Part shown: positions 10,967-46,341 of the stretch, piece after piece
Position numbering within the stretch: position 1 is the stretch's first letter
Layout: every line of letters begins with the position of its first letter
Origin: Actinomycetes bacterium
GTDB taxonomy: Bacteria; Actinomycetota; Acidimicrobiia; Acidimicrobiales; Acidimicrobiaceae
Reading direction: 5' to 3'
Assembly: GCA_021777475.1 (NCBI GenBank)
Contig: JAJYDM010000005.1
Coordinates: 1 to 50,283 of the forward strand
Length of the DNA: 50,283 nt
Translations under genes and position numbers: made by a program
Notes under the pieces: generated by a model
What the model was told of the DNA's origin: nothing
Seen by the model: the letters and a program-made list of their open reading frames with translations, nothing else
Database searches by the model: none

Positions 10967-11992
10967 CTATCGGCCCTTGGCCTTTAGCTGCGCATCCAGG
11001 CGGGGATAAACTCGGCGAACGTTTAGTTCAAATACGCGGCGCGTGTCTCCATCAGACAGGTTCAGGGCGTCTACGTACCTCTTCGTATCATCCCAAAACT
11101 GGCCCGTCTCCGGATCCTTCACATTTGGAACCGCACCAAGCATTTCCGAGGCAAATAGGATGTTGCCAAGATCGATCACCCTGGTCAACAAATCAATTCC
11201 CGCCTGGTGGTAAACGCAGGTGTCGAAAAACACGTTACCCATGACGTGCTCAATGACCGGTGGCCGCTTCAGTCTCTCCGCGAGACCGAGGTACCGGCCC
11301 CAATGATAGGGTACTGCACCTCCGCCATGGGGAATTACAAAGCGCAAGTCTGGAAATCTCGAAAACAGGTCACCCTCGATGAACTGCATGAACGCAGTCG
11401 TGTCGGCATTGAGATAGTGTGCGCCCAGCGCATGGAAATTCTCGTTACATGAACCGGACACGTGAATCATTGCAGGAACGTCAAGCTCCACCATCGCCTC
11501 ATAAAGAGGAAACCAGTACTCATCTGTCAACGGTTTGGATGTCCAAAAACCTCCCGATGGGTCGGGATTGAGGTTACAGCCCACGAATCCAAGCTCCTCG
11601 ACACATCGGCGCAACTCTGCAATGGAACTCTTGAGATCTCCGCCCGGCGTCTGCGGCAGTTGACAAACCGCAGCGAAATAATCCGGAAAGAGCATGACCA
11701 CTCTGTGAATAAGGTCGTTATTTGCACGCGCCCAAGCCTGCGCCGTGGCTGGATCGGTCACGTGATGAGCCATCGCTGATGCTTTGGGAGAAAATATCAT
11801 CATGTCACTCCCCCGCTCGCGCAAGACTCTCAACTGATTGTCCTCGATACTTCTTCGTATAGCCTCATCGCTGATTACTGCCGGAGAGGGCTCGGGCAGT
11901 GTCGGATCGGCAAGCCGTGCGAGTTGGGCATCACGAAAACTCTGATGCTCGTCAGGCGTCGTCGTATAATGGCCATGGCAATCTATGATCAT
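10967..11992 (-). CDS. ligJ: 4-Oxalomesaconate hydratase-like amidohydrolase (LigJ type)
   Basis: About 341 residues of the amidohydrolase-2 family. The N-terminus MIIDCHGHYTT with the HxH metal pair is characteristic of LigJ/GalB-like hydratases; further metal-site regions are seen in MIHVSGS and VIPHGGGAVPYHWGR. LigJ hydrates 4-oxalomesaconate to 4-carboxy-4-hydroxy-2-oxoadipate in protocatechuate 4,5-cleavage and gallate catabolism. An alternative ATG 9 bases upstream (12001) is only 2 bases from AGGAG, so the internal ATG at 11992 is preferred. It lies directly after ligK, whose enzyme uses its product. Decarboxylases of the same superfamily (ACMSD-like) are the main alternative. Confidence 0.82.
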   Translation of the reverse strand: MIIDCHGHYTTTPDEHQSFRDAQLARLADPTLPEPSPAVISDEAIRRSIEDNQLRVLRERGSDMMIFSPKASAMAHHVTDPATAQAWARANNDLIHRVVMLFPDYFAAVCQLPQTPGGDLKSSIAELRRCVEELGFVGCNLNPDPSGGFWTSKPLTDEYWFPLYEAMVELDVPAMIHVSGSCNENFHALGAHYLNADTTAFMQFIEGDLFSRFPDLRFVIPHGGGAVPYHWGRYLGLAERLKRPPVIEHVMGNVFFDTCVYHQAGIDLLTRVIDLGNILFASEMLGAVPNVKDPETGQFWDDTKRYVDALNLSDGDTRRVFELNVRRVYPRLDAQLKAKGR

Positions 11993-12018
11993 TTGGTACA
12001 TATCTCCTAGTGCTTATC

Positions 12019-12035
12019 GAGCCCAATCAGGGCTC
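12019..12035 (-). other. Small hairpin between ligK and ligJ
   Basis: GAGCCC and GGGCTC form a 6-bp stem with a 5-base loop overlapping the ligK stop codon. No T tract follows. It may adjust downstream expression or protect the mRNA end. Confidence 0.3.
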
Positions 12036-12723
12036 ATTCGGCGGCCAGCTCATCGATGTAGATCAGACCTTCTTTGATCAGGCGCTCACGCATATTGTGA
12101 AAGTCAAGACCCAGCTCACCCGCCTGGTAACGCGCACGCGAAACCGCCTCTTTTTTTTCTCGGGCAATGGAGGCTTCAAGTACAGTTGCCGCCTTGAGCC
12201 GCGGAACTACAACTACCCCGTCGTCATCTGCGACGATTACATCCCCAGGTTGGACCAGTTGCCCGGCACACACTACGGGAACATTAACTGAACCAAGCGT
12301 CTCTTTCACCGTTCCTGTAGCGGATACACACTTCGACCAGACAGGAAACCCCATTTTTTCAAGCTCGGCCACGTCGCGGCAACCCGCATCGATAATGAGC
12401 CCGCGTACACCACGCGCATGCGCCGAAGAAGCGAGAAGTTCACCAAAATATCCAGCATCAGATGGTGAAGTTGGCGCAACAACTAAGATGTCGCCTTGCT
12501 GGCACCACTCAAGTGCCACATGGATCATCCAGTTATCGCAAGGAGCCACACTCACAGTTATCGCGCTTCCGGAAATTCGTGTTCCCTTGAAAATCGGATC
12601 GATGTATGAGTAGAGCAGACCAGTTCGATCTTGGGCCTCATGTATCGTAGCTACCCCGATACTTCCCAGTAGATCCACCACCTTTGGATCTGCTCGGCGT
12701 ATGTTCTTGACAACTACCGGCAT
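12034..12723 (-). CDS. ligK: 4-Carboxy-4-hydroxy-2-oxoadipate aldolase (RraA family, LigK type)
   Basis: 229 residues of the class II HMG/CHA aldolase group of the RraA fold. Diagnostic stretches are [39 protein letters not shown] and [14 protein letters not shown], the last holding the Arg-Asp pair used for pyruvate and metal binding. [11 protein letters not shown] and [12 protein letters not shown] are also typical. The reaction splits 4-carboxy-4-hydroxy-2-oxoadipate to pyruvate and oxaloacetate. It lies 6 bases after the alcohol dehydrogenase stop and just before ligJ, forming a coherent lower-pathway operon. Confidence 0.88.
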
Positions 12724-32280: not shown

Positions 32281-33241
32281 ACACGCCTGACATGAGTGAA
32301 AATGCCACTTCCAGGCTGCGCAAATCATCATTACCAAATATTCCCACCGCCCGTCGGCGACAACCTGTGGCCCTGAATATTTTCCAGAGTCGCCCTTGCA
32401 CATGTTCTGATAGGGGTCCACTTCGCAATGGGCCAGCACCCCTGGAACCACCTTCGAGATTGCCTGAACAAGGTCGCCTTCATTGGCACAGTCAACATGC
32501 ATCCCCGTCATTTGGCTCAATTTGGAACTTGACGCCTTCACCGACATTATCAAGAGCCCCGAAGTCGATAGTTGTTAAACCTGCAAACCTCTCTGTGGGT
32601 AAAGGCTTGCTGACTTTCGGGGTTCTATAACACTCTTCTCCCGCAGCGACCACTCCCTCAGGCCCGCTCCATCGAATCAGCAACTCCTCCGGCGCAATAT
32701 CGATCACATCCGCAAAGTCACGATGTCCATGTCCAGGCCGGGACATCAAGCGAACTTCCCCGATGCCAGTCTTGGACGCCTCCGCTACTTGCGCCATTGA
32801 CCCATAAGAACGCCCGCCGTATATCAGCTGAAACGCACTGCGGCTCCTCTCGGCCTTTTTGACCTTTGTGTAATTCAACGTGGGTGCGAGACCCCCCGCG
32901 AGAACAAGATCGCGTTCCCGCTGATCAGGTCCGAGAGAATCATTTTCGCACCAAGTTTCAGGCTCTCCGGCCCCCATTACCAGGGAATAGATCTCCTCAG
33001 AACCACCAACTCCTTCATTACCTGCCACAACGGCGATTCGACAGGTCGAACTGTCCTCACTGTCAGCAACTAGGTAATGCCGCCGAATCAATCCCGATAA
33101 AGGAGGAATGTCCGTGTGAGCGCTAAACATCCATTGCTCCGGCCTCTCGCCGTCAGGATCGACAAGCCGCAGAGTGACAGACTCTTCGACCTGTGCAACC
33201 AGGCTTTTCGCATTTTGATTGCAGGGAGTCAAGTTTTCCAC
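32281..33241 (-). pseudogene. vanB: Decayed vanillate O-demethylase reductase (vanB)
   Basis: Starting right after vanA (stop and start adjoin, GTG), a 249-codon frame follows VanB colinearly: AHTDIPPLSGLIRRHY, LVLAGGLAPTLNYTKV, FQLIYGGRSYGS and SGPEGVV. The signature residues are lost: the RxYS flavin motif reads RHYLV, the NAD motif GGIGxTP reads GGLAPTL, and CGPEG reads SGPEG. The frame stops at 32492, but another minus frame continues with DLVQAISKVVPGVLAHCEV and later MMICA, the ferredoxin domain, with the [2Fe-2S] cysteine spacing destroyed. So it is frameshifted in its last third and eroded throughout. It cannot be a working reductase. Confidence 0.85.
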
Positions 33242-34282
33242 TTAAGATACCCCGTTAAGACTTTCACGCATTTTCTTCAACACATTGCGTGCAACCAATC
33301 CGCCAGTATCAATCTTGATGCTCAGCTCTTGGACTTGACCACCCTCAGATGCAATAACCTTTTCGAGAACGTTCAAGGCGTCGACATCTTGTTTTACAAC
33401 AGCGTCCTGCATCTCTGTCAAAAATTCTGAGACCCAGTCATCGCTCAGTGAGAAATCGCGTGCGACTGCGTAAAAGTTCCAAGTTGAATTCTCCGTCTCG
33501 GGAGTGATCCCATAAAGGATCTTCATATGAATTGCGTCGGGATCGCTTCCGTCGGAATTGGGTAGAACGCCAGTCGGAGCAATACGCGAATGCAGGACAT
33601 AAAGACACGGCGGACGGTATTCAATGTCCTGCCAACGGTCTATCCTCCCGGAAATGCCTGAAGACTTGGAGTAGAAAGGCGGGCACTCGACACCCTGCAT
33701 GTGACGATTAACCCTGACAATCCCGGCTTCATCGTCGATAGTTGAGTCGATTGGTGTCTGGGCAACTTCAGGAGTGCCTATGGAGCCAGCGTGCAGATAA
33801 CTTTCGTGAGAGAGGTCCATCAGGTTATCCACAAGGAGACTGCTACGGCACTGAATTGAGACATGATTCCCAATCCAGCGCCAACCATCATCGTAAAGCC
33901 ATGGATGCTTCGGAACCGCGGAGGATGAAGCTGCGTCGGGATCACCAATCCAGACCCAGATCCAGGGCCCCTGTTCAATAACTGGGTAGCTCTTCACGCG
34001 AGCAGTGCTCGGAAATTTGGATTGCCCCGGGACCGACACACACATCCCAGTGCAGTCGTATGTGAAGCCGTGATATCCGCACTCGATCGTATCGCCCTTG
34101 ACAAGACCGAGCGAAAGCGGGTAGCGCCTGTGTACGCAACGGTCAGCGAGTGCTATCAACGACCCCGACCCGCCACGGAAAAAGACAATCGGATCACCAC
34201 AAATTGTTCGTGCCAAAGGACCTGAAGCGACCTCTGTTCCCCAGCCGGCCACATACCACGCATTTGTCACAAACGGATCCAT
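33242..34282 (-). CDS. vanA: Vanillate O-demethylase oxygenase subunit
   Basis: 346 residues from the ATG at 34282, which has AGGGGGG 6 bases upstream; an ATG two codons earlier is too close to it. The MDPFVTNAWYVAGWGTEV start is typical VanA. Rieske ligands are C49, H51, C68, H71; the mononuclear iron ligands are H159 and H164 with bridging D156 (NLMDLSHESYLHAGSIG). It uses O2 and electrons to release formaldehyde from vanillate-like methyl ethers. All motifs are intact although the reductase gene downstream is decayed, so it must use another electron donor or be on the way to loss. Confidence 0.88.
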   Translation of the reverse strand: MDPFVTNAWYVAGWGTEVASGPLARTICGDPIVFFRGGSGSLIALADRCVHRRYPLSLGLVKGDTIECGYHGFTYDCTGMCVSVPGQSKFPSTARVKSYPVIEQGPWIWVWIGDPDAASSSAVPKHPWLYDDGWRWIGNHVSIQCRSSLLVDNLMDLSHESYLHAGSIGTPEVAQTPIDSTIDDEAGIVRVNRHMQGVECPPFYSKSSGISGRIDRWQDIEYRPPCLYVLHSRIAPTGVLPNSDGSDPDAIHMKILYGITPETENSTWNFYAVARDFSLSDDWVSEFLTEMQDAVVKQDVDALNVLEKVIASEGGQVQELSIKIDTGGLVARNVLKKMRESLNGVS

Positions 34283-34348
34283 AATCATCCCCCCTCGGAT
34301 ACCTGATCCATGCCCCCTACATATGCGTCAGATTGTATCAGTTCATGC

Positions 34349-34376
34349 AGTGATACTTCGTATACGAATTATCACT
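34349..34376. promoter_or_regulatory. 28-bp near-perfect palindrome, operator between vanA and marR
   Basis: Outer arms AGTGATA and TATCACT flank the inner 12-bp palindrome TTCGTATACGAA; only one base pair breaks symmetry. It lies 67 bases upstream of vanA and 139 upstream of the MarR gene. TACAAT at 34332-34337 on the minus strand is a possible vanA -10, placing the palindrome over the -35. Probable binding site of the adjacent MarR regulator. Confidence 0.7.
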
Positions 34377-34514: not shown

Positions 34515-35027
34515 ATGCAAACATTTCAACTTTCAGCCTCACCTGGACACCTGATTAGACGTCTGCATCAGTTCAGCACATCGCTTTGGGCCAACATAGT
34601 CTCTAACCAAATAACGTCTCCTCAGTTCGGAATTCTGAACTTTCTGGCCGATCACGCCGGATGCGACCAGACAACGCTTGGATCTTCAGTCTTTCTTGAT
34701 CGGGCATCCACCACGGAAATCGTCGGGAGGATGACTAAGCGAGGTCTTATCTGCAGAGTCAAGGACCCCAAAGACATGCGCCGTTGGAAACTCACACTCA
34801 CCGACCTTGGCTACCGCACCTACGCCGAGCTGGCTCCACTCTCTCTTGTACATAACAACTGTCTCGTTGAAGCTCTAAGCAAGCCGAACCAACTACAGTT
34901 TCTTGGTTACCTCCAGGAGATCCTCAACGTAGACCCCGAACTCAGAGTTACCGAGCAGGTGCGCCAGGTTTCAAATTCGGACTCGCCTATTTCAGGTAGA
35001 GAAGTTCAGCAGGCTGCACTGGATTGA
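34515..35027 (+). CDS. MarR-family transcriptional regulator
   Basis: 170 residues; RBS AGGAG 6 bases before the ATG. The winged helix core runs about residues 35-110: QFGILNFLADHAGCDQTTL, RASTTEIVGRMTKRGLI with the recognition helix, then DPKDMRRWKLTLT (wing). No ligand-binding cysteines stand out. It is divergent from vanA across the palindrome at 34349-34376 and probably represses vanA and perhaps itself until an aromatic acid binds. The DsrE-like gene follows after 51 bases. Confidence 0.87.
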   Translation: MQTFQLSASPGHLIRRLHQFSTSLWANIVSNQITSPQFGILNFLADHAGCDQTTLGSSVFLDRASTTEIVGRMTKRGLICRVKDPKDMRRWKLTLTDLGYRTYAELAPLSLVHNNCLVEALSKPNQLQFLGYLQEILNVDPELRVTEQVRQVSNSDSPISGREVQQAALD

Positions 35028-35586: not shown

Positions 35587-37383
35587 TCAAAATCCGATGC
35601 GCTGAAAGAACGTCTTCTGGAACTCCGGCATGCTGGACAGTTCAAGAACGCGTGCCCTTTTTGCCAGGTTAATGGCTTCCTGACGTTCTGCGGATGAAAG
35701 AACGGCAAGACGGGCACCCACCCCGGCGGCATTTCCAACCTGACGGAACCTTTCCACAGGAAGGTCGGGCAAAAGGCCAATGGCAGATGCGCTTTCAAGA
35801 TCAACGTAGGCGCCGAAGGCCCCTGCAACGATGACACGGCCTATATCCTGCTCCGCAACCCCTCCAACATCTAGCAACATGTCGATACCCGCCCGAATCG
35901 CCGCCTTGGCCAGCTGAACCGCCCGAATATCGTCCTGGGTGAATACTAGGTCAGGCTCGGCCAATTTGACGGCGCGCCCAATGGGCAATTCAATTGTTGC
36001 CGGACCATCCGCCTTGATGCGTCCCCTCCGGTCGATGGCGCCTGAGCGGATCAGGGCAGCCACCGTGTCTATAACTCCTGAACCGCACAGTCCAACCGGT
36101 GCCGTGCCACCAATGGTTCTAAGAACGAAGCCCCCATGCCCATCCTCCCTTACACGCTCCACCGCTCCGTCCCCGGCACGCATGCCGCACGCAATGTGGC
36201 CGCCCTCAAGCGCCGGACCCGATGGAGTCGAGATCGATAGGATCTCGCTCCCTCCTCGCAAAAGAGAAATTTCTGTATTGGTTCCAATATCCAATATCAG
36301 TGAGACTCCTTCTCCATGGTGGTGACGGGTTGCAAGCAAAGCCGCAACGTGATCGCCTCCAACGTAGCCACCGATTCCTGGAAAAAGGTGCATGCTACAA
36401 CCTGGAGCCACACCCAAATCCAGCTGTCTTGCCGGCAAATCAAGCGCTCCGCTAACGGCCGCGACAAAGGGCGCAGATCCTAGTGCTCCAACAGGCAACC
36501 CCAAGAGCAAGTGGTGCATGGCAGTATTGCCGCAGATGACGATATCGGCAATACTGCCGATATCGGCCTTCACTGATCCGCAGAGCGCCTCTGCGAGCAT
36601 CGCCAATGTCTGACGGGCCGCCCTTACCAAATTCCGATGCCCTGTTTCCGAGCGGATGGCATAGGTCAACCTAGTTACGACATCGGCCCCGAACCCCGCC
36701 TGCAGATTCTCGATTCCACGACTCGCGAGAAGCCGCCCGGAAGACAGATCGACCAGATAACCTGCCACGTTGGTGGTTCCAAAATCTACGGCAAAACCAA
36801 GCGGCGACACTCCTGGTGCTGCAAAACCAACCAGGGTGGTGCCCCGAGACAATAACGCCGTTCCGATCCAGTTATTTCGTCGAAGTGCCAACGGCAGATG
36901 CGCCAAAACTTCGAGCCCAGTTGAACCCAGCTTCACGCCGGAAAGCTCGAGCGCCTCGGTCAATCGCTCAGCGTCGGCACGACGATCCTCAAGCGACGGC
37001 GGCTCCATTCTCACCTCCACCGCCTGTACCGACGGAGCAAGCTCGACCGGCACTTCGGCTCCTGCGACGTCTGTCCGCCCAGGTGTGGAGAGCGACCTTG
37101 CCGAAAGTCTAACCGTTATTGCCGACGTCGGGCGAATCTGACAGGCGCGCTGGTGGTCGGAATCCTCTCCGCCATCAAAGTTCCCCTCGAGCACATCAAC
37201 GTAACAGCTTCTGCAGGTCCCGCGACCTCCGCATGCCGCCACTAAACGAATCCCGGCTCGTCTGGCAGTTTCCAAAACCGTATCCCCAGGAATACCCTCA
37301 ATAGGTATCCCTGGGGGCTCAAATGTCACAACGTATCCTGCGTGACCGCGCTCGGAATGGGAACTAACGTGCGCCACTGCCAT
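35587..37383 (-). CDS. RACo-type reductive activator of corrinoid protein
   Basis: 598 residues from the ATG at 37383 (GGCGGAG upstream; an earlier ATG at 37413 is possible). N-terminal plant-type [2Fe-2S] ferredoxin with C51-x5-C57-x2-C60-x20-C81 (CGGRGTCRSC). The rest is the ASKHA/DUF4445 domain: AVDFGTTNVAGYLVD, ICGNTAMHHLLLGLPV, LILDIGTNTEISL, GLCGSGVIDTVAALI and VIVAGAFGAYVDLE. RACo proteins use ATP to reduce inactive Co(II) corrinoid to Co(I). Last gene of the operon; it serves the corrinoid protein encoded at its start. Confidence 0.92.
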   Translation of the reverse strand: MAVAHVSSHSERGHAGYVVTFEPPGIPIEGIPGDTVLETARRAGIRLVAACGGRGTCRSCYVDVLEGNFDGGEDSDHQRACQIRPTSAITVRLSARSLSTPGRTDVAGAEVPVELAPSVQAVEVRMEPPSLEDRRADAERLTEALELSGVKLGSTGLEVLAHLPLALRRNNWIGTALLSRGTTLVGFAAPGVSPLGFAVDFGTTNVAGYLVDLSSGRLLASRGIENLQAGFGADVVTRLTYAIRSETGHRNLVRAARQTLAMLAEALCGSVKADIGSIADIVICGNTAMHHLLLGLPVGALGSAPFVAAVSGALDLPARQLDLGVAPGCSMHLFPGIGGYVGGDHVAALLATRHHHGEGVSLILDIGTNTEISLLRGGSEILSISTPSGPALEGGHIACGMRAGDGAVERVREDGHGGFVLRTIGGTAPVGLCGSGVIDTVAALIRSGAIDRRGRIKADGPATIELPIGRAVKLAEPDLVFTQDDIRAVQLAKAAIRAGIDMLLDVGGVAEQDIGRVIVAGAFGAYVDLESASAIGLLPDLPVERFRQVGNAAGVGARLAVLSSAERQEAINLAKRARVLELSSMPEFQKTFFQRIGF

Positions 37384-38113
37384 TTTCTCCGCCTTCAAAC
37401 CCCCCGGCATCACGAATGGCCCTGTGGAAACAACGCGACCGGCTCCGACAACCTTGGCAGCGTCGGCCCTCGCGCCATTTCGGAATACCCACTCCCGTCG
37501 CGACCACGAAATTAAGCGAACGACCGGGTCTTACCATGCCAGCCTCCGTCACCGAGAATCCGGCCTCAACTCCGCCAGCGAGGCGTAGCACATCACTTTG
37601 GCAGTCGAGAGGAAATCCCGATTCACCAGGTGCAAATGGCTGACCGAGACAAAGACTCATGGAAGCCGCCTCGCCTTTCAACCTTCTTAAAACCTGCTCG
37701 CTCAGACTGAACAGCGCACGATTTGCGTATCCGTCCATCACCAATGCAAGCCGGTAGTGCTTGGAACGAAACAGTGCGGATATTCGTGTCTCAACTCCAA
37801 TTCCAATACCGCATAGGCCCACGACCAGGAACCGGGCCCCGGTCATGAATTCGTTGGCGGAAGCCAACGGCAGTCGTGTACCTTCTTTCAGCACAACGCC
37901 ATCACAATCGACAAATTTGACCGGCCAATACCTCCACATGGCAATTGGCTCAAGCAGCTGTTCATCTCTCAAGATCTCAATCGCATCCCCCGCTACTGCC
38001 AGCAGTGGCTTAGGAGTATTCTCTGGCCGTCGCTGCAACTCCTCCAAGAAGCGCGCTCCCGGAACCTCTAAGGTGCCCCTCGACCATGCCTTACCCTGCC
38101 CCATCGATATCAC
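37364..38113 (-). CDS. B12-dependent methionine-synthase activation-domain-like protein
   Basis: 249 residues starting GTG at 38113 inside the previous stop (GTGA), with an ATG at 38104 as alternative. By eye it follows the free-standing MetH-activation-like proteins: WRYWPVKFVDCDGVVL, ARFLVVGLCGIGIGVETRIS, LALVMDGYANRALFS, QPFAPGESGFPLDCQ, then GFSVTEAGMVRPGRSLNFVV and a C-terminal CxxC-x5-C (CQGCRSRSRC) motif. In MetH this domain binds AdoMet for reactivation; the free-standing proteins are common beside corrinoid methyltransferases but poorly characterised. Likely helps keep the corrinoid active. Confidence 0.75.
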   Translation of the reverse strand: MISMGQGKAWSRGTLEVPGARFLEELQRRPENTPKPLLAVAGDAIEILRDEQLLEPIAMWRYWPVKFVDCDGVVLKEGTRLPLASANEFMTGARFLVVGLCGIGIGVETRISALFRSKHYRLALVMDGYANRALFSLSEQVLRRLKGEAASMSLCLGQPFAPGESGFPLDCQSDVLRLAGGVEAGFSVTEAGMVRPGRSLNFVVATGVGIPKWREGRRCQGCRSRSRCFHRAIRDAGGFEGGENGSGAR

Positions 38114-39372
38114 CCACCTGGCCGATACGCATTCAAATTCTTTACTGTGATTTCATCGATCGTGTTGCCTCTCCCCGGCCTCAAGACGTTCCTACCCATT
38201 ATCACGGCCTCCACTCTTCTCAACGCCGTCAGGTCATCAAATGGAGAGGCCGCCAAAACCACTAATTCCGCTCGCGCTTGCTTAACTGGTCCAGCGGGTT
38301 CTTCACCCCAAAGCCTGCGTGGCACGGAAGTGGCAGACGCTAAAGCCGTCTGCATGCTCAGCCCAGCCTTTGAGAAAAACTCGACTTCGTCGATGAGGCT
38401 CGAGCCATGTGGAACCCCATGACTGCCTGCGTCAGAACCGCACACCAACGGCACTCCAAGCTCAGCCGCGAGGGCGACCTGCCGGGAATGCTGGTCAAGA
38501 ATCCTCCGTAGCATGCCTTGTGTATTAGGGTCCCAGCCGCACCATTTCGGCGAGCGCCATTGAAAGTCGACCGGGGAAAAAGTTGGAACCCACGCGACCT
38601 GCTGCTCCGCCATGGCGACGAGCATCTCTTCATTCATGAAAAACCCATGCTCAATACTGTCTATCCCAGCTTCGACCGCAATTGCGATTCCGTCAAGTCC
38701 GCTGCAATGTGCAAAAGTTTTCCGTCCCGCCGAATGGGCCGTTTCCACGATCTTGCGACAACTATCGACGTCGAACTGCGGAACCCCTTTCACCGCACCG
38801 GCCTCAAAATCAATGATGCCCGTCAGAATCACCTTGATATCGTCAGACTCTTCTGCCAATTCACCAATAACCTCCGACACCTGAGTCAAGTCGCCTACCT
38901 CACGGGCCATGAAGGCTCCATAACCCCGAGGTCCACGTACGCCTAAACCCGCTGAACGCACTCGCGGAAGGGGAAAGCCGGAAGAAGCGGCCTCTGCCCT
39001 AAGGATATGATTCACTCCAAAACGGTCCCCTGCATCGCGGACCAAGGTAACACCAGCCTCTGCCGACAGTTGAAGATTTCTTCGCCCAACCCCCACCATG
39101 TTGTCAACACTTGACTTTAAATAGGCGCTTCGGACTGCTGTATCGAGTTCCCCCCCATTGAGAAACAAATGCGCATGCCCTTCGACTAGCCCGGGCATCA
39201 AGAATGCGACATGCTCGATTTCCACACCTGGACATGAAAAAAAGGATGACTGATCGCCGTCAGCAACATCGCTAACAATATCCCCATCAATAACGACAGT
39301 GCGTGCCCCCTCCCCCCAGTACCGCTCACCATCGAACATCGAAGAGGTTACCAAAATCCTCCTTTGCATCAT
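38110..39372 (-). CDS. Amidohydrolase (imidazolonepropionase/prolidase-like) in corrinoid operon
   Basis: About 420 residues from the ATG at 39372, 4 bases after the MT2 stop; an open frame to 39417 overlaps MT2. Metal ligands: HxH in GLVEGHAHLFL, His in FAHCSGLD and IEHGFF, Asp in VCGSDAGSHG. These are metal-dependent C-N hydrolases. Nothing in O-demethylation requires one, but it is tightly embedded between MT2 and the activation protein. Possible roles are releasing a substrate amide or a folate-related hydrolysis; neither is supported by motifs. Confidence 0.82.
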   Translation of the reverse strand: MMQRRILVTSSMFDGERYWGEGARTVVIDGDIVSDVADGDQSSFFSCPGVEIEHVAFLMPGLVEGHAHLFLNGGELDTAVRSAYLKSSVDNMVGVGRRNLQLSAEAGVTLVRDAGDRFGVNHILRAEAASSGFPLPRVRSAGLGVRGPRGYGAFMAREVGDLTQVSEVIGELAEESDDIKVILTGIIDFEAGAVKGVPQFDVDSCRKIVETAHSAGRKTFAHCSGLDGIAIAVEAGIDSIEHGFFMNEEMLVAMAEQQVAWVPTFSPVDFQWRSPKWCGWDPNTQGMLRRILDQHSRQVALAAELGVPLVCGSDAGSHGVPHGSSLIDEVEFFSKAGLSMQTALASATSVPRRLWGEEPAGPVKQARAELVVLAASPFDDLTALRRVEAVIMGRNVLRPGRGNTIDEITVKNLNAYRPGG

Positions 39373-39376
39373 TTCC

Positions 39377-40261
39377 CTAGCCCCTGTATAGCTTGCGGAC
39401 GAGGCGCATGGCGTCAACTCCCCTAGCCGAAATTATCTGCTGGAACTGGGCAAGCACTGGACTGTCGGGCGCAAGAGGTTCGTACTGCTTCCAAGGAGTT
39501 CCCAACACGGTGTCGAAACCGTATGGCATCGCAAGGGTGATAAAAGCCCGTTCGATCTGGGACTTCAGGTCTGAACCATCTGCAGCCTTGGCTGGGAGCT
39601 GCTGAACAATGTTGCTAAGACCTCCACTTAAATGGACACCCCTCATGGAGGGATCGTCGCCGATCGACTTAATGCCATCGATAGCCATTTGAAGGAGGCC
39701 TTCGGTGTCCGAAGAAAGCGCACTGATCGAAACGTCCACAAAAATGTCATCGGCCAAAAGCCCATGCCTTGAAATCAGCTTCTCAGTCATTCGTTTAGCC
39801 ACCATCGCCACTTCAGCACTGAACTTATTCGCACGGCCAACTCCGCCTTCCAGCCGCTCCGAAGCCATCAAGATCACTTTGAATGGCCGGATAGAAAGCA
39901 ATTCAAGCATCTCCCAACGCGTTTCCGAAATGGAATTGACAATCGGCTTGCGTCCACAGGCCTTTTCTATGTCATATGTCTCAAGGCATACTGCCTGCAC
40001 ATCCACATTTGGGAAATCGAAACTTAGCGGAAGGTCCACAACATCCTGGATGGCCTGGATTACCTCCTTCATGAACGCTTTGTCGTAAAGCGCACGTGAA
40101 CCAATATTGACGTTTAGGTAATCAGCACCTGCTGCCGCTTGACGTCGGGCAAGCTCTTGGATACCACCCAAATCGTCCTTTTCGAACAGTTCTTTGGTGC
40201 TCTTGAAACCGGGGTTGATACGTTCCCCAATAATAGTTAGCCGTTGTCCGGTCATACCCAT
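39377..40261 (-). CDS. Methyltetrahydrofolate:corrinoid methyltransferase (MT2, AcsE/MtvA-like)
   Basis: 294 residues, pterin-binding TIM barrel. The start TIIGERINPGFKSTKEL, then GADYLNVNIGS, the PLSFDFPN strand, KPIVNSISE and GVHLSGGLSNIVQQLP are the pattern of the AcsE/MtrH/MtvA group. It transfers the methyl group from methyl-Co(III) corrinoid to THF (or the reverse). Dihydropteroate synthase has the same fold but lacks the GLSN ending. It lies 13 bases after the MetV-MetF gene and just before the amidohydrolase. Confidence 0.88.
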   Translation of the reverse strand: MGMTGQRLTIIGERINPGFKSTKELFEKDDLGGIQELARRQAAAGADYLNVNIGSRALYDKAFMKEVIQAIQDVVDLPLSFDFPNVDVQAVCLETYDIEKACGRKPIVNSISETRWEMLELLSIRPFKVILMASERLEGGVGRANKFSAEVAMVAKRMTEKLISRHGLLADDIFVDVSISALSSDTEGLLQMAIDGIKSIGDDPSMRGVHLSGGLSNIVQQLPAKAADGSDLKSQIERAFITLAMPYGFDTVLGTPWKQYEPLAPDSPVLAQFQQIISARGVDAMRLVRKLYRG

Positions 40262-40274
40262 CGCACTCTATCTC

Positions 40275-41723
40275 TCACAATCTCTTCTCAACACCTTCTG
40301 GCGTTCCGACACGAATGACGCTCTCGCCACTTCGTATCCCTGAAGCCCTGATGACCTCGGCGATCAGAGCCTCGTTCCGATGCGCCATGACATGAACTCC
40401 AGCAACGCCCTTCACTTCGTGTATCTGCTGAATCAGCTCGATGCAAAGCTGGCGGCCTTCACGTCGTTGATCGTTCGCCTTTTCCAGCCGCTCAACGACG
40501 TGATCCGGGATGTGAACACCAGGCACGGACGAACGCATCCAGCGCGCCGTTCGCGCCGAAGGGAGTATTCCAACACCAACCAGAATGAAGCATCTCTGAT
40601 CGAGACCAAGGTCACGAACCTGAACCATGAAACTTTCGAGTGCAGGCACGTCAAAGCAAAACTGAGTCTGGATGAACTGTGCTCCAGCATCGACTTTCTT
40701 GGCAAGGTGCGCTGCCCGAGTTCGTTGAGGTGGTGAAAACGGGTTTGCCGCCGCTCCAAGGAAAAGCCCTGGTCGACTCGAAAGAGCCCTTCCTGAAAGA
40801 AAACGGCCCTCATCGCGCATTTTGCGGGCTGCGTCAAGAAGAGACACGCTATCAAGATCACAAACAGCCACCGCACCGGGATGATCTCCCGAACCGATCG
40901 CGTCACCAGTCAGACACAACAGGTTCGATATTCCAAGGGCGGAAGCACCGAGAATGTCACCTTGTATCGCAATTCGATTACGGTCACGGCAAGTCAGTTG
41001 CATAACCGGCGTTAGACCCTGACTGACGAGCAATGCGGCGACACTCATGCTTGAAATGTGACAGTTTGCCCCGGAAGCATCGGTGATATTGATTGCATCC
41101 ACCACATCTGCCAGCACTGAAGCGTGCCTCAGTGCATCCGTTGGGTCGGCGGAATCAGGTGGGGAAAGCTCAGCCGTCACAGCGAACTGGCCCGATCGCA
41201 GCACCTCCTCAAAGCGATTCGGCCTTGCTGGAGCCACCGGTGCCAGTGCTGGTTCGCGATGTGCCATGATTGAGACCGGCCTGCCCGAGGCGGACATCGA
41301 ACGCAACCATGCCGATGTGTCACGCAGGCGAAAATCCAGCGCTGGCTGGATGTTGCTGATCGCTCCACCCTTTTTCATCCGTGCGCTGCCATCCCAGGCA
41401 TCGACCCACACACAGCGCATCTCTGGATCCACCTCACACCGACCGTCGCCCCTAACGCCGCCACACGGACCATTGCGCATCAGTTTTGGGCAGTTGGCAG
41501 GACAAGACATTCCGGTTGAGGACAGAATACATTGTCCGCACATCTGGCAGTCGAAAAGCAGCCCCTTGAGGTGACGCTCGCCAAAAACAAAAAACGGCGC
41601 CAGGCGATTCGAGAGTAACGACCTGTCGTGAAGGCGGCTCCGCGCCAAGAGGGAGGAGAGTCCTGCATAAATGCGTTCGAACATCCTCGCTCTTCGCACC
41701 GCCCAGTGCCGAGTCACCCGCAT
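40275..41723 (-). CDS. Fused MetV-type zinc/Fe-S domain and methylenetetrahydrofolate reductase
   Basis: 482 residues (an ATG at 41684 with GAGCGAGG upstream is a possible shorter start). Residues 55-110 hold eight cysteines at 59, 62, 65, 74, 78, 87, 96 and 104 (CQMCGQC, CPANCPK, NGPCGG, CEVDPEMRCVW), the MetV/MTHFR_C pattern of acetogens. Residues 165-480 are MetF: FAVTAELSPPDSADP, NITDASGANCH, LLCLTGDAIGSGDHPGAV and TQFCFDVPAL. It oxidises methyl-THF from MT2 to methylene-THF, or runs in reverse. In acetogens MetV and MetF are separate proteins, so the fusion is notable. Confidence 0.9.
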   Translation of the reverse strand: MRVTRHWAVRRARMFERIYAGLSSLLARSRLHDRSLLSNRLAPFFVFGERHLKGLLFDCQMCGQCILSSTGMSCPANCPKLMRNGPCGGVRGDGRCEVDPEMRCVWVDAWDGSARMKKGGAISNIQPALDFRLRDTSAWLRSMSASGRPVSIMAHREPALAPVAPARPNRFEEVLRSGQFAVTAELSPPDSADPTDALRHASVLADVVDAINITDASGANCHISSMSVAALLVSQGLTPVMQLTCRDRNRIAIQGDILGASALGISNLLCLTGDAIGSGDHPGAVAVCDLDSVSLLDAARKMRDEGRFLSGRALSSRPGLFLGAAANPFSPPQRTRAAHLAKKVDAGAQFIQTQFCFDVPALESFMVQVRDLGLDQRCFILVGVGILPSARTARWMRSSVPGVHIPDHVVERLEKANDQRREGRQLCIELIQQIHEVKGVAGVHVMAHRNEALIAEVIRASGIRSGESVIRVGTPEGVEKRL

Positions 41724-41846
41724 TGGCCATCATTCCGGTGCCACAGACCTGACGCCTGCAAGTCCGTCGTTATCTTAAACGGGACTCCCGTCGCTGCTGC
41801 GACAGATCGAATTCGCTCAGGGCGATCCATCCGACGACCGCTTTCT

Positions 41847-43121
41847 CTAAGCACTGAAGTCACGGACTGATTGAAACATTGCTCTGACATTCTCAAGACG
41901 GGCTTCATCGGGAATTCCAATACCCCCATCAAGAATGAAACCACCATCTCTGCCAACACCTTCGATTAGTTTCTTGCAATACTCACGCACATCTTGCGGA
42001 GTTCCCGTATTCAGCATCGAAGCCGGGACATTGCCACGCAAGCACACCACGTCACCCAGGACAGCCTTGGCGCGAAATAGGTCGGTGCGTTCGAACCAAT
42101 AAATGGCCTTACCAGCTGGAATATCGGCAATTGTCTCCAAGCGGGAAGTGCAATCACCTTCCCACAGCACCAGAGGAACCAGTCCTGCCTCGATCAAGCC
42201 TACGATAACCTTTCGAAGGTGAGGCCAGAAGAATGTCTTGAACTGATCTGGGGACATAAAGCCGTCAAGTCCCCAATGCATCGGTAAAAATACAATCTTG
42301 CACGGATTTTGACCAGCCATTTCAAGCAAGCCCTTAAGTATTATCGGAGTGGCGCGGTCCATTGCTGCCAAAAGCTTGTCCTTGCGGCGAAAGAGGTCCA
42401 ACATGATTCCCTTAGAACCGCGCATATTGTCGGCAAAGTAGTCATAGGGTGCGGGTCCAGTGGCCATCTGCCCCATTGGAAAACCAAGTCCAGCCATTTC
42501 GACTTGAAACTCCGAGGCACTGTCGAAAGCGACCTGAGCCTCGCGGCCAGCTTTCGCCAACTGCGCAAAACCAGCCGCCACCTCATCCGTGAAGAATCTC
42601 GTAAGATATACCAACCTCGTGTGCTGCATCGATGCCGGCTGGGGCAAACCGGCCATGGGGGCAAACGCTTCAGCCACCCTTGGTAGGTAGCGCGTGAGAT
42701 AGAACCAGCCGGGATCCTCGATGTAGTCGTCATACTCCTCGGGCTTCATATACTCACGATCGATGTACTGGTAGGAATAGTTCTCGCCTACGCCATGGCC
42801 AGGCCATCGGAGCTGCTGATACCCCATCAACTCCATTGTGGGACCAAGCAGTGTTGCCCTGTGCGGAGCGGCAACGGCATCAGGTTTGAGTTCAAGAACG
42901 ATCTTCTTTGTCACCTCGGATACCTTGGCGTAGTTGTACATTGCCTCCTTGAAGGTGATCCCGGCATAACTGGCATGCCAAAACATCGTGTAATAGATGA
43001 TCGGAACCCGGTCAGGCCTACGCAAAGCTATCGCATCGTCTATCCTTTTTTGCCGTTCGTCGAAATCCCGGGCCATGTCCTCAGCGTCTTTGGAAATTGT
43101 CGCCTCATCCATCTTGATCAC
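41847..43121 (-). CDS. UroD-family corrinoid methyltransferase (MT1), probable aryl-ether O-demethylase component
   Basis: 424 residues of the uroporphyrinogen-decarboxylase-like methyltransferase group, not haem UroD. Recognisable segments are RPDRVPIIYYT near the start, GQMATGPAPYDYFADNMRGSK, VFLPMHWGLDGFM, FWPHLRKVIVGL and the C-terminal LRGNVPASMLNTGTPQDVREYCK, which is the MtaA/CmuA/MtvB signature. The MtaA zinc motif HxC reads HWG, so its metal ligands differ from methyl-CoM enzymes. Starts GTG at 43121 (AAAGGAG just upstream) or ATG 43112. It demethylates the substrate onto the corrinoid protein encoded 65 bases upstream. Confidence 0.88.
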   Translation of the reverse strand: MIKMDEATISKDAEDMARDFDERQKRIDDAIALRRPDRVPIIYYTMFWHASYAGITFKEAMYNYAKVSEVTKKIVLELKPDAVAAPHRATLLGPTMELMGYQQLRWPGHGVGENYSYQYIDREYMKPEEYDDYIEDPGWFYLTRYLPRVAEAFAPMAGLPQPASMQHTRLVYLTRFFTDEVAAGFAQLAKAGREAQVAFDSASEFQVEMAGLGFPMGQMATGPAPYDYFADNMRGSKGIMLDLFRRKDKLLAAMDRATPIILKGLLEMAGQNPCKIVFLPMHWGLDGFMSPDQFKTFFWPHLRKVIVGLIEAGLVPLVLWEGDCTSRLETIADIPAGKAIYWFERTDLFRAKAVLGDVVCLRGNVPASMLNTGTPQDVREYCKKLIEGVGRDGGFILDGGIGIPDEARLENVRAMFQSVRDFSA

Positions 43122-43186
43122 ACACTCCTTTATAGGTCATATATAGGCACCCGTCTTGATGATCCTTCGGGAACAAAGGGCGCATT

Positions 43187-43822
43187 TCAGGCAGCCAACC
43201 ATTGACGGCAAAGCGAGACGGCATCCATAGCATTGAGGCCGAAGGCATCAGCATTTGTATATGAGCGCACTGCTTCATCCACCTGGCCCCCTCCGATCAT
43301 TATCTTAAGAGAATCACGTAATCCGGCATCGGACAGAGCGTCGATGGTCTCCTTCATTGAATCAAAGGCAAGTGTCAGAAAACCGCTCAGTGCGAGCACA
43401 GGTGGCTTGAGCTCGCGCACCTTGTCGACAAAGTCCTCTACGGGAACATCGATGCCCAGATCAATCACGTTGTATCCGTTTACCTCAAGCATGAAAACAA
43501 CGATGTTCTTTCCAATGTCGTGTAGATCGCCATGCACCGTACCAATGAGAACGGTTCCAGCAGTGTTTGCCGATGCCTGTGGTCCCCCAACGAGGAGAGG
43601 CTTTACTATTGCGCTAATCTGCTCAAGTAGATCTCCAGCCAACATAAGTTCAGGAAGGAAGTACTCTCCATCTTCGAAGCGCTTACCCACCAGATCCATG
43701 GCTTCCCGGCATGCGTCAAGCACCTGCTGGGGATCACCACCGCCTGACACGAACTCGCGCACGACTTGAAGTGCCAACTCCTCCTCCATATCGGCGATTG
43801 TGCGAACCAACTCCTCAAGCAT
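43187..43822 (-). CDS. Corrinoid (B12-binding) protein of methyltransferase system
   Basis: 211 residues, two domains as in MtaC/MtvC. Residues 1-85 are the four-helix cap (AMDLVGKRFEDGEYFLPELMLAGDLL). Residues 88-211 are the cobalamin Rossmann domain: DxHxxG as DLHDIG (H101 is the lower cobalt ligand), SGFLTLAF, and IGGGQVD. It shuttles the methyl group between MT1 and MT2. First gene of the seven-gene operon, with CAGGAGGGGGG upstream. Confidence 0.95.
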   Translation of the reverse strand: MLEELVRTIADMEEELALQVVREFVSGGGDPQQVLDACREAMDLVGKRFEDGEYFLPELMLAGDLLEQISAIVKPLLVGGPQASANTAGTVLIGTVHGDLHDIGKNIVVFMLEVNGYNVIDLGIDVPVEDFVDKVRELKPPVLALSGFLTLAFDSMKETIDALSDAGLRDSLKIMIGGGQVDEAVRSYTNADAFGLNAMDAVSLCRQWLAA

Positions 43823-44215
43823 GATTGAAATGCCCCCCTCCTGAGTAGATCTCTTTCATCCCGCTGCCCCAAAACAGAAGGATTTGCCCCAGATTACTGA
43901 CTTGACAGTATACTGTCAAATCTAGAGTGGGATGAATCTCAGGAATTTGAATACGACCATTTCAACCACCAACCGCCAACCTCCGCCAGCATGAATAACT
44001 GATTCCTTGCCCAATGAATATCAAATTGACGATGCACTTGAGCTGACCTGCACGAAACTGGAGGCCAAGTCCAGCCATGGATACTCAACTCCGTAAAACT
44101 CGGGTATAAACAGCATTCACACAATTTGAGAAGAGCTTTGTGCATTCATCAGAAAGTTAAACTTAGAATAGAATCGCCGTCCAAGGTGAACCCGCACGCG
44201 GAGGTGGAGGACGAA
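43823..44215. other. Promoter region of corrinoid operon
   Basis: About 390 bases between the corrinoid gene and the DUF6457 gene. It contains the palindrome at 43902-43919, whose TTGACA can serve as -35 (17-base spacing to TAATCT as weak -10). No gene seen in the rest. Confidence 0.5.
43902..43919. promoter_or_regulatory. 18-bp perfect palindrome TTGACAGTATACTGTCAA, operator of corrinoid operon
   Basis: Perfect symmetry; 80 bases before the corrinoid gene. The TTGACA on the minus strand (43914-43919) fits a -35 box, so a bound repressor would block the promoter. A partial copy (12 of 18 bases) lies over the -35 of the MarR gene at 44703. Probable MarR-type operator. Confidence 0.75.
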
Positions 44216-44702: not shown

Positions 44703-44731
44703 ATGACAGTACACTGCTGGATTGCTATAAT
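44703..44731 (+). promoter_or_regulatory. MarR promoter with overlapping operator copy
   Basis: -35 ATGACA (44703-44708), 17-base spacer, -10 TATAAT (44726-44731), 30 bases before the MarR start. The -35 lies in a degenerate copy of the 43902-43919 palindrome (left half intact, TGACAGTA), consistent with autoregulation by the same protein. Confidence 0.6.
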
Positions 44732-44760: not shown

Positions 44761-45327
44761 GTGAACACGGACTCGGGTGAACAAGTTCAAGACAATGACG
44801 ATGAATTGGCGGTCTATGATATGCCGGGTCACCTTGTACGACGCCTTAACCAGATCGCAGTATCGATTTTCCTGGACGCCACACGGCAGTTTGGAATCAC
44901 TCCGGTACAATTCTCCGCCCTCACTGCAATCAGCAGCGTACCTGGAATCGATCAAAGACGCCTTTCGAGAGTGATCGCTTTCGACCGTTCCACAATCGGT
45001 GACGTTGTCCAAAGGTTGGAAAAGCGAGGTCTGATCTCGTCAGAAAAAAAAGAAGCTGACCGGCGAACGAACCATCTCGTTCTGACCTCAGAGGGTGCCA
45101 CAACTCTCTCGGCAATGCAGCACGCTGTATGGAAATCCAATGACGATCTGCTCAAACCCCTCTCTGAAGAAGAGCGAGCAACGTTCATGTTTCTTCTCAA
45201 GAAGCTTGTTAATCTTAACAATCAAATGAGCAGGGCTCCCCTGGTACCAGACAAGCAAGGACCGGCAATCCTGGTCCGAAAGCCGATCGGTACTAATTGG
45301 CACCGCGCTTCCCGAACAGCGCACTGA
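44761..45327 (+). CDS. MarR-family transcriptional regulator, likely controlling the corrinoid operon
   Basis: 188 residues with a GTG start (AAGGAT upstream). Winged helix core: HLVRRLNQIAVSIFLDATRQFGITPVQFSALTAI, then FDRSTIGDVVQRLEKRGLIS (recognition helix) and KKEADRRTNHLVLT (wing). It resembles the MarR beside vanA in layout (PGHL-RRL-Q start) and may be a paralogue. The half-palindrome over its own promoter and the full one at the corrinoid operon, 0.8 kb away, make it the best candidate regulator. Confidence 0.88.
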   Translation: MNTDSGEQVQDNDDELAVYDMPGHLVRRLNQIAVSIFLDATRQFGITPVQFSALTAISSVPGIDQRRLSRVIAFDRSTIGDVVQRLEKRGLISSEKKEADRRTNHLVLTSEGATTLSAMQHAVWKSNDDLLKPLSEEERATFMFLLKKLVNLNNQMSRAPLVPDKQGPAILVRKPIGTNWHRASRTAH

Positions 45328-45507: not shown

Positions 45508-46341
45508 CTACTTGACGCTTCCACCAAGGCGAACGGTAATTTCCCAAGCGGCCTCAAGAAGTGGCTTGAGGAGGGTGTTCACCAACCTCTTTCGAGAATA
45601 CTCCGCACTTGATACGGCAACATTGATTGCGGCCACCACTCCCCCGCCACCTTGTCTGATTGGAGCAGCGATGGAACTAAGCCCGGGAATCGCAGTCTCC
45701 TGTTGAATCACGTATCCATCTTTACGGGCTGCTTCCAGCTGAGGCAACAGTTCGGCCATCGTGCGTACCGCGTTTGGACCCCATCTTCCACCAAAAGAGG
45801 TTTCCGAAATGCACCGCCGCAGTTCTGAATCGGTCAAATCCGCGAGAATGACCTTTCCAATTGAACTGAAAACAGCCGGAACAGTCGATCCAACCCGAAT
45901 TCCGGCAGCCAGTAGGCTGTCTCGCCTAGGAACTCTCGCAACAAAAAGGACCTGGTCGCTGTAGAGTACTCCGAGATTCACTGTCTCGCCAGTGGAAGTC
46001 GCCAAGTCGCGCATTGTAGACCTTGAATTCTGGACCAGGTCCAACCCCTGAACAGCGGCAAAACCAAGTGCCAGAACACTAGTACCTGGGCGTACCATAG
46101 ATTCAGGCGTACGCTCAAGGTACCCTTCCTCCTCAAGGGTAGCAACAAGGCGAAACACGGTAGGCATAGGTATCCCAGTTAGGTCAACTATGTCCTTGAC
46201 ACGAAGGGCTGGCCTCTCCGCGCTGAAGAGCGACAATAACCGAAGTCCCTTTGCAAGTGCTTCGACCCGATAGGAACGCGTCGTAGAAGATGACCCCTCG
46301 CCATCGTTGGAACGAGGCGATCTTGGTGCACGATTACTCAT
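45508..46341 (-). CDS. IclR-family transcriptional regulator
   Basis: 277 residues. Helix-turn-helix at about residues 40-85 (ALRVKDIVDLTGIPMPTVFRLVATLEEEGYLERT), then the GAF-like effector domain with TGETVNLGVLYSDQVLFVARV and AVFSSIGKVILAD, ending AAPIRQGGGGVVAAINVAV. The disordered N-terminus (SPRSNDGEGSSSTT) precedes the DNA-binding part. IclR proteins often control aromatic catabolism (PcaR, PobR types). It lies between the corrinoid region and the SDR/FAH operon; it could regulate the latter via the elements at 49911 and 50210. Confidence 0.9.
   Translation of the reverse strand: MSNRAPRSPRSNDGEGSSSTTRSYRVEALAKGLRLLSLFSAERPALRVKDIVDLTGIPMPTVFRLVATLEEEGYLERTPESMVRPGTSVLALGFAAVQGLDLVQNSRSTMRDLATSTGETVNLGVLYSDQVLFVARVPRRDSLLAAGIRVGSTVPAVFSSIGKVILADLTDSELRRCISETSFGGRWGPNAVRTMAELLPQLEAARKDGYVIQQETAIPGLSSIAAPIRQGGGGVVAAINVAVSSAEYSRKRLVNTLLKPLLEAAWEITVRLGGSVK

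Follow-up and report, generated by a model that had tools for sequence, protein, structure and literature searches.

In corrinoid methyltransferase systems, the Co(I) form of a corrinoid protein (CP) attacks a methyl group held by a first methyltransferase (MT1), a second methyltransferase (MT2) passes the group on to tetrahydrofolate (THF), and the activator RACo re-reduces corrinoid that has fallen to Co(II) in an ATP-driven reaction. Such systems with separate subunits and an MT1 of the UroD type have been described mainly from anaerobes. Here we describe a seven-gene operon on a 50,283-nt stretch (contig JAJYDM010000005.1 of assembly GCA_021777475.1; hereafter the window) from an actinobacterium of the Acidimicrobiaceae. 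We read the operon, with moderate confidence, as an aerobic-lineage three-component corrinoid demethylase with activation and one-carbon oxidation modules, and we consider it likely, more broadly, that an aerobe here demethylates some substrate and passes the methyl group to THF.

LigM and DesA of sphingomonads are one-component, aminomethyltransferase-like O-demethylases that depend on THF and use no corrinoid. If the substrate of the present system is an ether, the two share O2-independent demethylation to THF within an O2-requiring aromatic pathway (PMC9296663), but none of our seven proteins has an aminomethyltransferase (GcvT) Pfam match. CdmBCA of Acetobacterium shares the MT1/CP/MT2 architecture and provides the nearest solved MT1, and the Cdm system was concluded to be likely exclusive to anaerobes (PMC13222342); the window MT1, in contrast, is only 26.7% identical to CdmB, belongs to another clade and differs at many polar positions. 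The Cmu system of aerobic methylotrophs is aerobic, uses corrinoid and THF, and has a MetF-type reductase and a HutI-type amidohydrolase nearby (PMC3621897), but CmuA joins in one protein the MT1 and CP domains that are encoded here by separate genes, and its MT1 is very distant. MtgBCD of marine roseobacters, bacteria not known as anaerobes, demethylates glycine betaine through corrinoid and THF with an MT1 of another family (pfam06253), and no UroD-type MT1 is named in the available parts of that paper (PMC12478193). Apart from Cmu, no UroD-type corrinoid demethylase of aerobes was found among the titles and abstract openings listed, a body of text that mostly excludes the subscription literature.

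The closest likeness is to MtvABC, Odm, Vdm and Mto with their RACo-type activator, which share with the present system the UroD-type MT1, the separate CP, the THF-type MT2 and the activator. Here, however, the hosts carry a heme-copper oxidase and lack CdhC, the MT1 forms a clade of its own, the substrate is a predicted one, and a reactivase, an amidohydrolase and a MetV-MetF fusion are encoded within the operon. What is new, in our view, is less this one genome than the clade of aerobic hosts, the hub-like arrangement of its loci and the genes that accompany them.

The operon and its proteins

All seven open reading frames (ORFs) lie on the minus strand between positions 35587 and 43822 (Table 1), exactly where an earlier note, made from the DNA alone, had placed a CP, an MT1, a MetV-MetF fusion, an MT2, an amidohydrolase, an activation-like protein and RACo, and Pfam and NCBIfam matches agree with model folds on that list. 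With starts as called, the gaps measure 65 bases between CP and MT1, 123 between MT1 and MetV-MetF, and 13 between MetV-MetF and MT2, while the last three junctions overlap; because the gaps are short or negative, the genes lie as in one operon. GC content is 55% in the operon and 53% in the window. A UroD-fold MT1, a separate CP with a DxHxxG motif, a pterin-binding MT2 and a RACo-type activator occur here together, as an O-demethylase system requires.

The CP motif reads DLHDIG (residue 99), and the best match of the protein among solved sequences (4jgi, E = 1.4e-49; next 7xcn, 1e-39) comes from D. hafniense, where it is the CP component of a putative O-demethylase (PMC3727330). In MT1, the Pfam URO-D domain spans residues 230-421, and the model (mean pLDDT 94.7) has a UroD/MtaA fold (4ay7, Z 27.1 over 309 residues, root-mean-square deviation 2.9 Å) that HemE structures match almost as strongly; CdmB did not appear among the structure matches listed (Foldseek, PDB copy to 2026-04-08). 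Pfam finds no MttB-type domain in MT1, a result that bears on the non-ether grouping named by the earlier note as a contrary outcome. The fusion protein carries MTHFR and a MetV-like DUF5981 on one chain, with eight cysteines at 59-104. Solved matches of MT2 are MeTr 2yci (E = 9.9e-16), then 4o0q, 4o1e and 4o1f (1.3e-13), of which 4O1E and 4O1F, the companions of 4o0q, were used for folate placement in CdmA (PMC13222342). By sequence the amidohydrolase is kin to HutI/prolidase-type amide hydrolases and carboxypeptidases, its solved relatives being LlADH 9l6p (E = 1.2e-26) and the Xaa-Pro dipeptidase 2qs8 (2e-26).

Neither Pfam nor NCBIfam has a model that matches the protein we call the reactivase. 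In structure, an AlphaFold2 prediction for it (mean pLDDT 83) matches 1j6r, TM0269, a stand-alone MetH activation domain of Thermotoga (Z 18.3, 192 residues, root-mean-square deviation 3.0 Å), and also resembles the reactivation domains of MetH, unrelated structures all scoring under Z 6. The fold bears out the label 'B12-methionine-synthase-activation-like' given to this protein before, and the C-terminal cysteines C219, C222 and C228 are invariant in 28 rows. RACo matches RACo_C_ter at 233 bits (Pfam/NCBIfam) and the solved 3zyy at E = 1.1e-78, and has the cysteines C61-x5-C67-x2-C70 and C91.

Within the genus, the whole set is syntenic in genome G005 together with both flanking MarR genes and the VanA-type gene (MT1 97% identical), and genome G008 has the same order spread over two contigs that break inside MT1. 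The ratio of nonsynonymous to synonymous substitution rates (dN/dS) between the window's genome (G000) and G005 is 0.04-0.21 in 7/7 genes; for G008, the MT1 compared was the contig C7 copy, and two pairs had a saturated dS. Since order is kept in both genomes and dN/dS is that low, synteny and purifying selection confirm the operon as not due to chance. G008 also has a second CP and MT1 pair (L041:5185-7145; 68% and 73% identity), perhaps for a second substrate, on a contig that ends just past MT1.

Full-length MT1 was found in 3/9 genomes of the genus, several of them incomplete, and in 0/27 of the family and 0/24 of the order (60 genomes, its own included); the remaining matches among the 60 were short, C-terminal and 23-30% identical. 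The lineage of these relatives (Actinobacteria, Acidimicrobiaceae) agrees with the actinobacterial host that had been proposed.

Table 1. Features of the operon and its flanks (positions in the window)
Feature	Positions	Strand	Length	Basis
CP, corrinoid (B12-binding) protein	43187..43822	-	211 aa	Pfam B12-binding and B12-binding_2, DxHxxG
MT1, UroD-fold methyltransferase	41847..43121	-	424 aa	Pfam URO-D, model, clade
MetV-MetF fusion	40275..41723	-	482 aa	DUF5981 45-131, MTHFR 171-461
MT2, pterin-binding methyl-THF/corrinoid methyltransferase	39377..40261	-	294 aa	Pterin_bind
HutI/prolidase-type amidohydrolase	38110..39417	-	435 aa	Amidohydro_1
MetH-reactivation-fold protein (reactivase)	37364..38113	-	249 aa	1j6r fold match, C-terminal C-x2-C-x5-C
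RACo, corrinoid reductive activator with [2Fe-2S]-type domain	35587..37413	-	608 aa	Pfam RACo domains and Fer2
Operator-like palindrome upstream of CP, holds TTGACAGTATACTGTCAA	43899..43922			two 12-nt arms, no gap, 92% complementary
Possible degenerate second palindrome copy before divergent MarR gene	44705..44718			3 mismatches, kept in three species
MarR-family regulator, divergent from operon	44761..45327	+		Pfam MarR; syntenic in G005, G008
VanA-type Rieske oxygenase	33242..34288	-		Rieske and VanA_C (Pfam); syntenic in G005, G008
MarR-family regulator, divergent from VanA-type gene	34515..35027	+		Pfam MarR
Palindrome between VanA-type gene and its MarR gene	34349-34376		28 bases	26/28 kept in three species

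The MT1 clade, its loci and its hosts

When named genomes were scanned with a profile built from ten MT1s, 553 stretches were obtained and 523 proved to be relatives; of these we kept the best 80 (79 loci), mostly from metagenome-assembled genomes (MAGs). L028, which has a stop, was left out of alignment A1. In the 109-row tree, the window MT1 lies inside a clade of 66 rows (SH-like approximate likelihood ratio test 100) made up of 54 sequences from Pseudomonadota, 6 from Acidobacteriota, 3 from 'Deltaproteobacteria' (classed here under Myxococcota) and 3 from this genus. Outside it fall Bacillota, Chloroflexota, Nitrospirota, Thermodesulfobacteriota, other 'Deltaproteobacteria', other actinobacterial families, CdmB, CmuA (at most 24% identical to any row) and three paralogues whose genomes, of Acidobacteriota and Gammaproteobacteria, encode clade members as well. 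A careful tree of 44 rows recovers the clade with 24 rows and support 100/100, and CdmB again lies outside, on a long branch.

Among the best 80 of the 523 relatives, the nearest MT1 outside the genus belongs to a 'Deltaproteobacteria' MAG (67% identical), followed by Burkholderiaceae (63%) and Rhodobiaceae (62%); transfer between phyla is therefore likely. Across the phylum, 29/396 genomes match MT1 at E 1e-20 (its own included), the best others at 36-45%. Plasmids gave one distant match (Sporomusa termitida, 27%), and of the viral collection 47 stretches fit a pattern, none of which encoded a relative by tblastn.

In the 57 other clade loci we found CP in 31, the reactivase in 25, RACo in 24, MT2 in 18, the amidohydrolase in 10 and MetV-MetF in 8, counts that are lower bounds, as many contigs end nearby. 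Genes were taken from a codon-score caller (a first caller took long antisense ORFs), and parts of some loci remained without genes. The recurring order is CP-MT1-reactivase-RACo-MT2-amidohydrolase, with MetV-MetF on either side. MT2 is 45-60% identical to the window's in clade loci (86% in G008) and 25-37% identical in loci outside the clade. The 38 assemblies hold 65 MT1 copies. For 33 of these copies no RACo gene was called in the 7 kb around them, and 25 of the 33 likewise lack a CP within 3 kb, although this class is inflated by L090 and L098, which show a cut-off RACo, and by others near contig ends; assembly NZAK01 alone holds six copies. We read this pattern as one common core that would serve several substrate-specific MT1s. 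The earlier note did not see that the system belongs to this larger clade, whose hosts are aerobic, or that reactivase and amidohydrolase recur there. The reactivase was also considered as a marker of aerobic systems and rejected, since it occurs outside the clade too (L044, L046, L047, L048, L120 and L124).

Several loci show further arrangements. Two adjoining MT1 genes from different clade branches occur per core operon in L068, L077, L079, L080 and L081. In a gammaproteobacterial MAG (L109:3636-7239), the region upstream of the core holds separate MetV- and MetF-like ORFs beside proteins that by eye are MvhD (FlpD)- and HdrC-like. Also by eye, UbiD/UbiX decarboxylase-like proteins stand beside MT1 copies (L059:1546-7382, L062:3099-4508), the core of a 'Deltaproteobacteria' MAG (L076:4159-16424) adjoins ring-hydroxylating dioxygenase- and P450-like proteins together with a second CP and two more UroD-like genes, and the cores of L084 and L093 lie near cytochrome oxidase genes, COX1 occurring twice in the neighbour tally. 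A HutI-type amidohydrolase adjoins cmuA on pCMU01 of M. extorquens CM4 (L135:7080-8312); an amidohydrolase thus recurs beside aerobic corrinoid/THF systems, in the clade and in Cmu.

To characterize the hosts we used 28 of the 38 clade assemblies, picked beforehand as those whose loci have core genes or are of the same genus. All 28 encode a heme-copper oxidase (COX1) and none encodes the acetyl-CoA synthase CdhC, the host gene by which demethylation would be linked to the Wood-Ljungdahl pathway. Among 17 genomes with an MT1 outside the clade (a set that excludes L095 and L107), COX1 was above cut-off in 8 and CdhC was present in 13. The window's own genome has COX1 (535 bits) and no CdhC, and it has MetV-MetF and FolD (178 bits) for the THF steps; the complete methyl-to-THF corrinoid system claimed for an actinobacterium is supported. 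Clade records name groundwater and palsa samples, and several other hosts are presumably marine, to judge from their isolate codes.

Flanking genes and putative regulation

The 18-mer TTGACAGTATACTGTCAA within the palindrome upstream of CP is identical in all three species, and its exact 14-mer palindrome core (43904-43917) occurs once in the window. The possible degenerate copy before the divergent MarR gene is weak alone, as 7/100 shuffles yield at least three such hits in the window. The palindrome between the VanA-type gene and its own MarR gene is likely the operator of that pair and is unrelated to the one before CP; from these sequences, the VanA-type unit and the operon are probably separate units under different ligands. 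At 105 bits against a cut-off of 600 in its best NCBIfam match, the gene can be assigned to the VanA-type Rieske oxygenases in general rather than to VanA in particular. The 249-aa ORF that follows it (32492-33241) has no Pfam or NCBIfam match. The window holds no Rfam match at gathering score, and no cobalamin riboswitch was seen in it. Elsewhere in the window, LigK scores 354 bits (cut-off 179), and a PcaR/PcaU/PobR-like IclR regulator at 45508 scores 167 bits, under its cut-off of 285.

Mechanism, substrate and alternative explanations

We infer the following course of events. MT1 would bind a methylated small molecule, the Co(I) of CP would take its methyl group, and MT2 would pass this from CP to THF, after which MetV-MetF would oxidise methyl-THF to methylene-THF for use by FolD or in biosynthesis. 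RACo would re-reduce CP that has fallen to Co(II), and the MetH-reactivation-fold protein probably assists, its modelled fold suggesting a second repair route. Until a ligand binds it, a MarR protein probably acts at the palindrome before CP to keep the operon repressed.

An aryl methyl ether appears the most likely substrate, a view that we hold with about as much confidence as doubt; its methyl carbon would be kept on THF. It is favoured by the nearest solved match of CP, the putative O-demethylase CP 4jgi, and by aromatic surroundings that comprise LigK, LigB, the IclR regulator and the VanA-type gene, a homologue of which (38% identical) adjoins the operon in L077 as well. A link to D. hafniense was also sought in the CP that L124 encodes and was rejected, because this protein is as far from 4jgi as the CP of the window or farther.

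Several points weigh against this interpretation. The earlier note had drawn the substrate from an operon 'beside' VanA and LigJ/LigK, a weak argument: about 23 kb separate the LigJ-like gene and LigK (10967-12723) from the operon, and the VanA-type gene, with its low match, is probably separately regulated, the argument from it being weakened because each unit has its own MarR gene and palindrome. LigB (98 bits in the window's genome; 24/26 clade genomes, 4/17 outside) was rejected as a sign of aromatic use, since it occurs in 4/4 same-genus genomes tested that have no full-length MT1. Around MT1 in the 57 clade loci no aromatic family dominates (276/277 proteins within 5 kb, one over-long left out; top Pfam families 4/134 and 4/142). 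The nearest solved sequence to MT1 is a chloromethane enzyme, CdmB (E = 4.5e-42). The phylogenetic check proposed in the earlier note was carried out in part: MT1 groups neither with CdmB nor with CmuA, in trees whose rows include no MtvB, OdmB, VdmB or MtoB. The clade loci from the scan are all titled as MAGs, in which an occasional binning error is possible and genomes may be incomplete. Lastly, Fhs was not found in the window's genome and PurU gave nothing above cut-off; complete oxidation of the methyl group is therefore unsupported, and the methyl carbon may feed serine, glycine and purines rather than exit as formate.

The same machinery might instead act on something other than an aryl ether, such as a methyl halide, a methylated sulphur or nitrogen compound, or a conjugate opened by the amidohydrolase, which we consider rather unlikely. 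W106, Q118, D231, H282, E321, R327 and Y341 of MT1 are kept in 66/66 clade rows and C324 and D398 in 65, whereas CdmB has H, H, S, W, Q, L, A, H and T at W106, Q118, D231, H282, E321, R327, Y341, C324 and D398, respectively. With cleft-lining positions taken from alignment rather than coordinates, these changes speak against a CdmB-like haloalkane pocket, as do the low identity to CdmB and the position outside its lineage; yet the polar residues are not clade markers, being mostly kept outside the clade too (30-40/43 rows at several positions), which lessens their support for an ether. Given the zinc ligand positions that we assume for CmuA, the His-Cys-Cys set is incomplete in MT1, where the third Cys is replaced by I401 (Cys in 5/66 clade rows), the His by L319 or G322, and the first Cys falls on E321 in one alignment and on C324 in the other; nor is there a clear counterpart of the zinc motif that we take to belong to Acetobacterium O-demethylases. 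S-methyltransferases carry such a His-Cys-Cys set (PMC10418091), and the absence of its His and third Cys in both alignments sets MT1 apart from MtaA/SCMT/Mlp and argues against an S-methyl substrate. In favour of a non-ether substrate, CdmB does not take methoxy-aromatics, and haloalkane activity is suspected to have arisen several times in the superfamily (PMC13222342). On pCMU01, moreover, the gene annotated directly behind cmuA encodes a HutI-type amidohydrolase, with hutI listed near the cmu genes (PMC3621897), and the amidohydrolase of the operon recurs in 10/57 clade loci; the Cmu and clade amidohydrolases are, however, barely alike (23.6% over 229 aa, E = 1e-5, for L089; E = 0.03 for the window protein).

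Two further explanations concern the direction and nature of the pathway. Corrinoid methyl transfers are reversible, and the operon might methylate its substrate with methyl-THF carbon, as in anaerobic oestrogen degradation, of which methyl transfer is the initiating step (PMC7448270). We judge this improbable: MetV-MetF sits in the operon, CP and MT2 are akin to demethylase parts, and several MT1 paralogues per genome are what a substrate range would require. Alternatively, the genes might make up a split form of the cobalamin-dependent methionine synthase or an operon for corrinoid housekeeping. This would account for the CP, pterin-binding and reactivation modules, all of which MetH has, and split MetH variants are known from marine bacteria (PMC12478193). 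The operon, however, contains no homocysteine-binding domain (Pfam) and has RACo and a UroD-type MT1 instead, and housekeeping sits poorly with a full-length MT1 in just 3/9 genus genomes and 0/51 of family and order, so that this explanation seems scarcely credible.

Returning to demethylation to THF, the clade may represent an unrecognised aerobic branch of UroD-type corrinoid demethylases in four phyla, a proposal on which we are evenly divided. Each host would have a hub (CP, reactivase, RACo and MT2, often with amidohydrolase and MetV-MetF) and further substrate-specific MT1s elsewhere in the genome, and O2-respiring bacteria would thereby demethylate ethers or other methyl compounds without an oxygenase, their Co(I) guarded by two repair proteins. 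Since the clade hosts tested all have COX1 and lack CdhC, our results suggest that a Co(I) system of the separate-subunit type is kept in aerobes. The clade offers a testable setting for the protection of Co(I) from oxygen and for the role of the amidohydrolase, an enzyme type found with the aerobic Cmu pathway too. If the substrates are methoxy-aromatics, lignin could be broken down aerobically with demethylation steps that cost no O2, give off no formaldehyde and retain the methyl carbon on folate.

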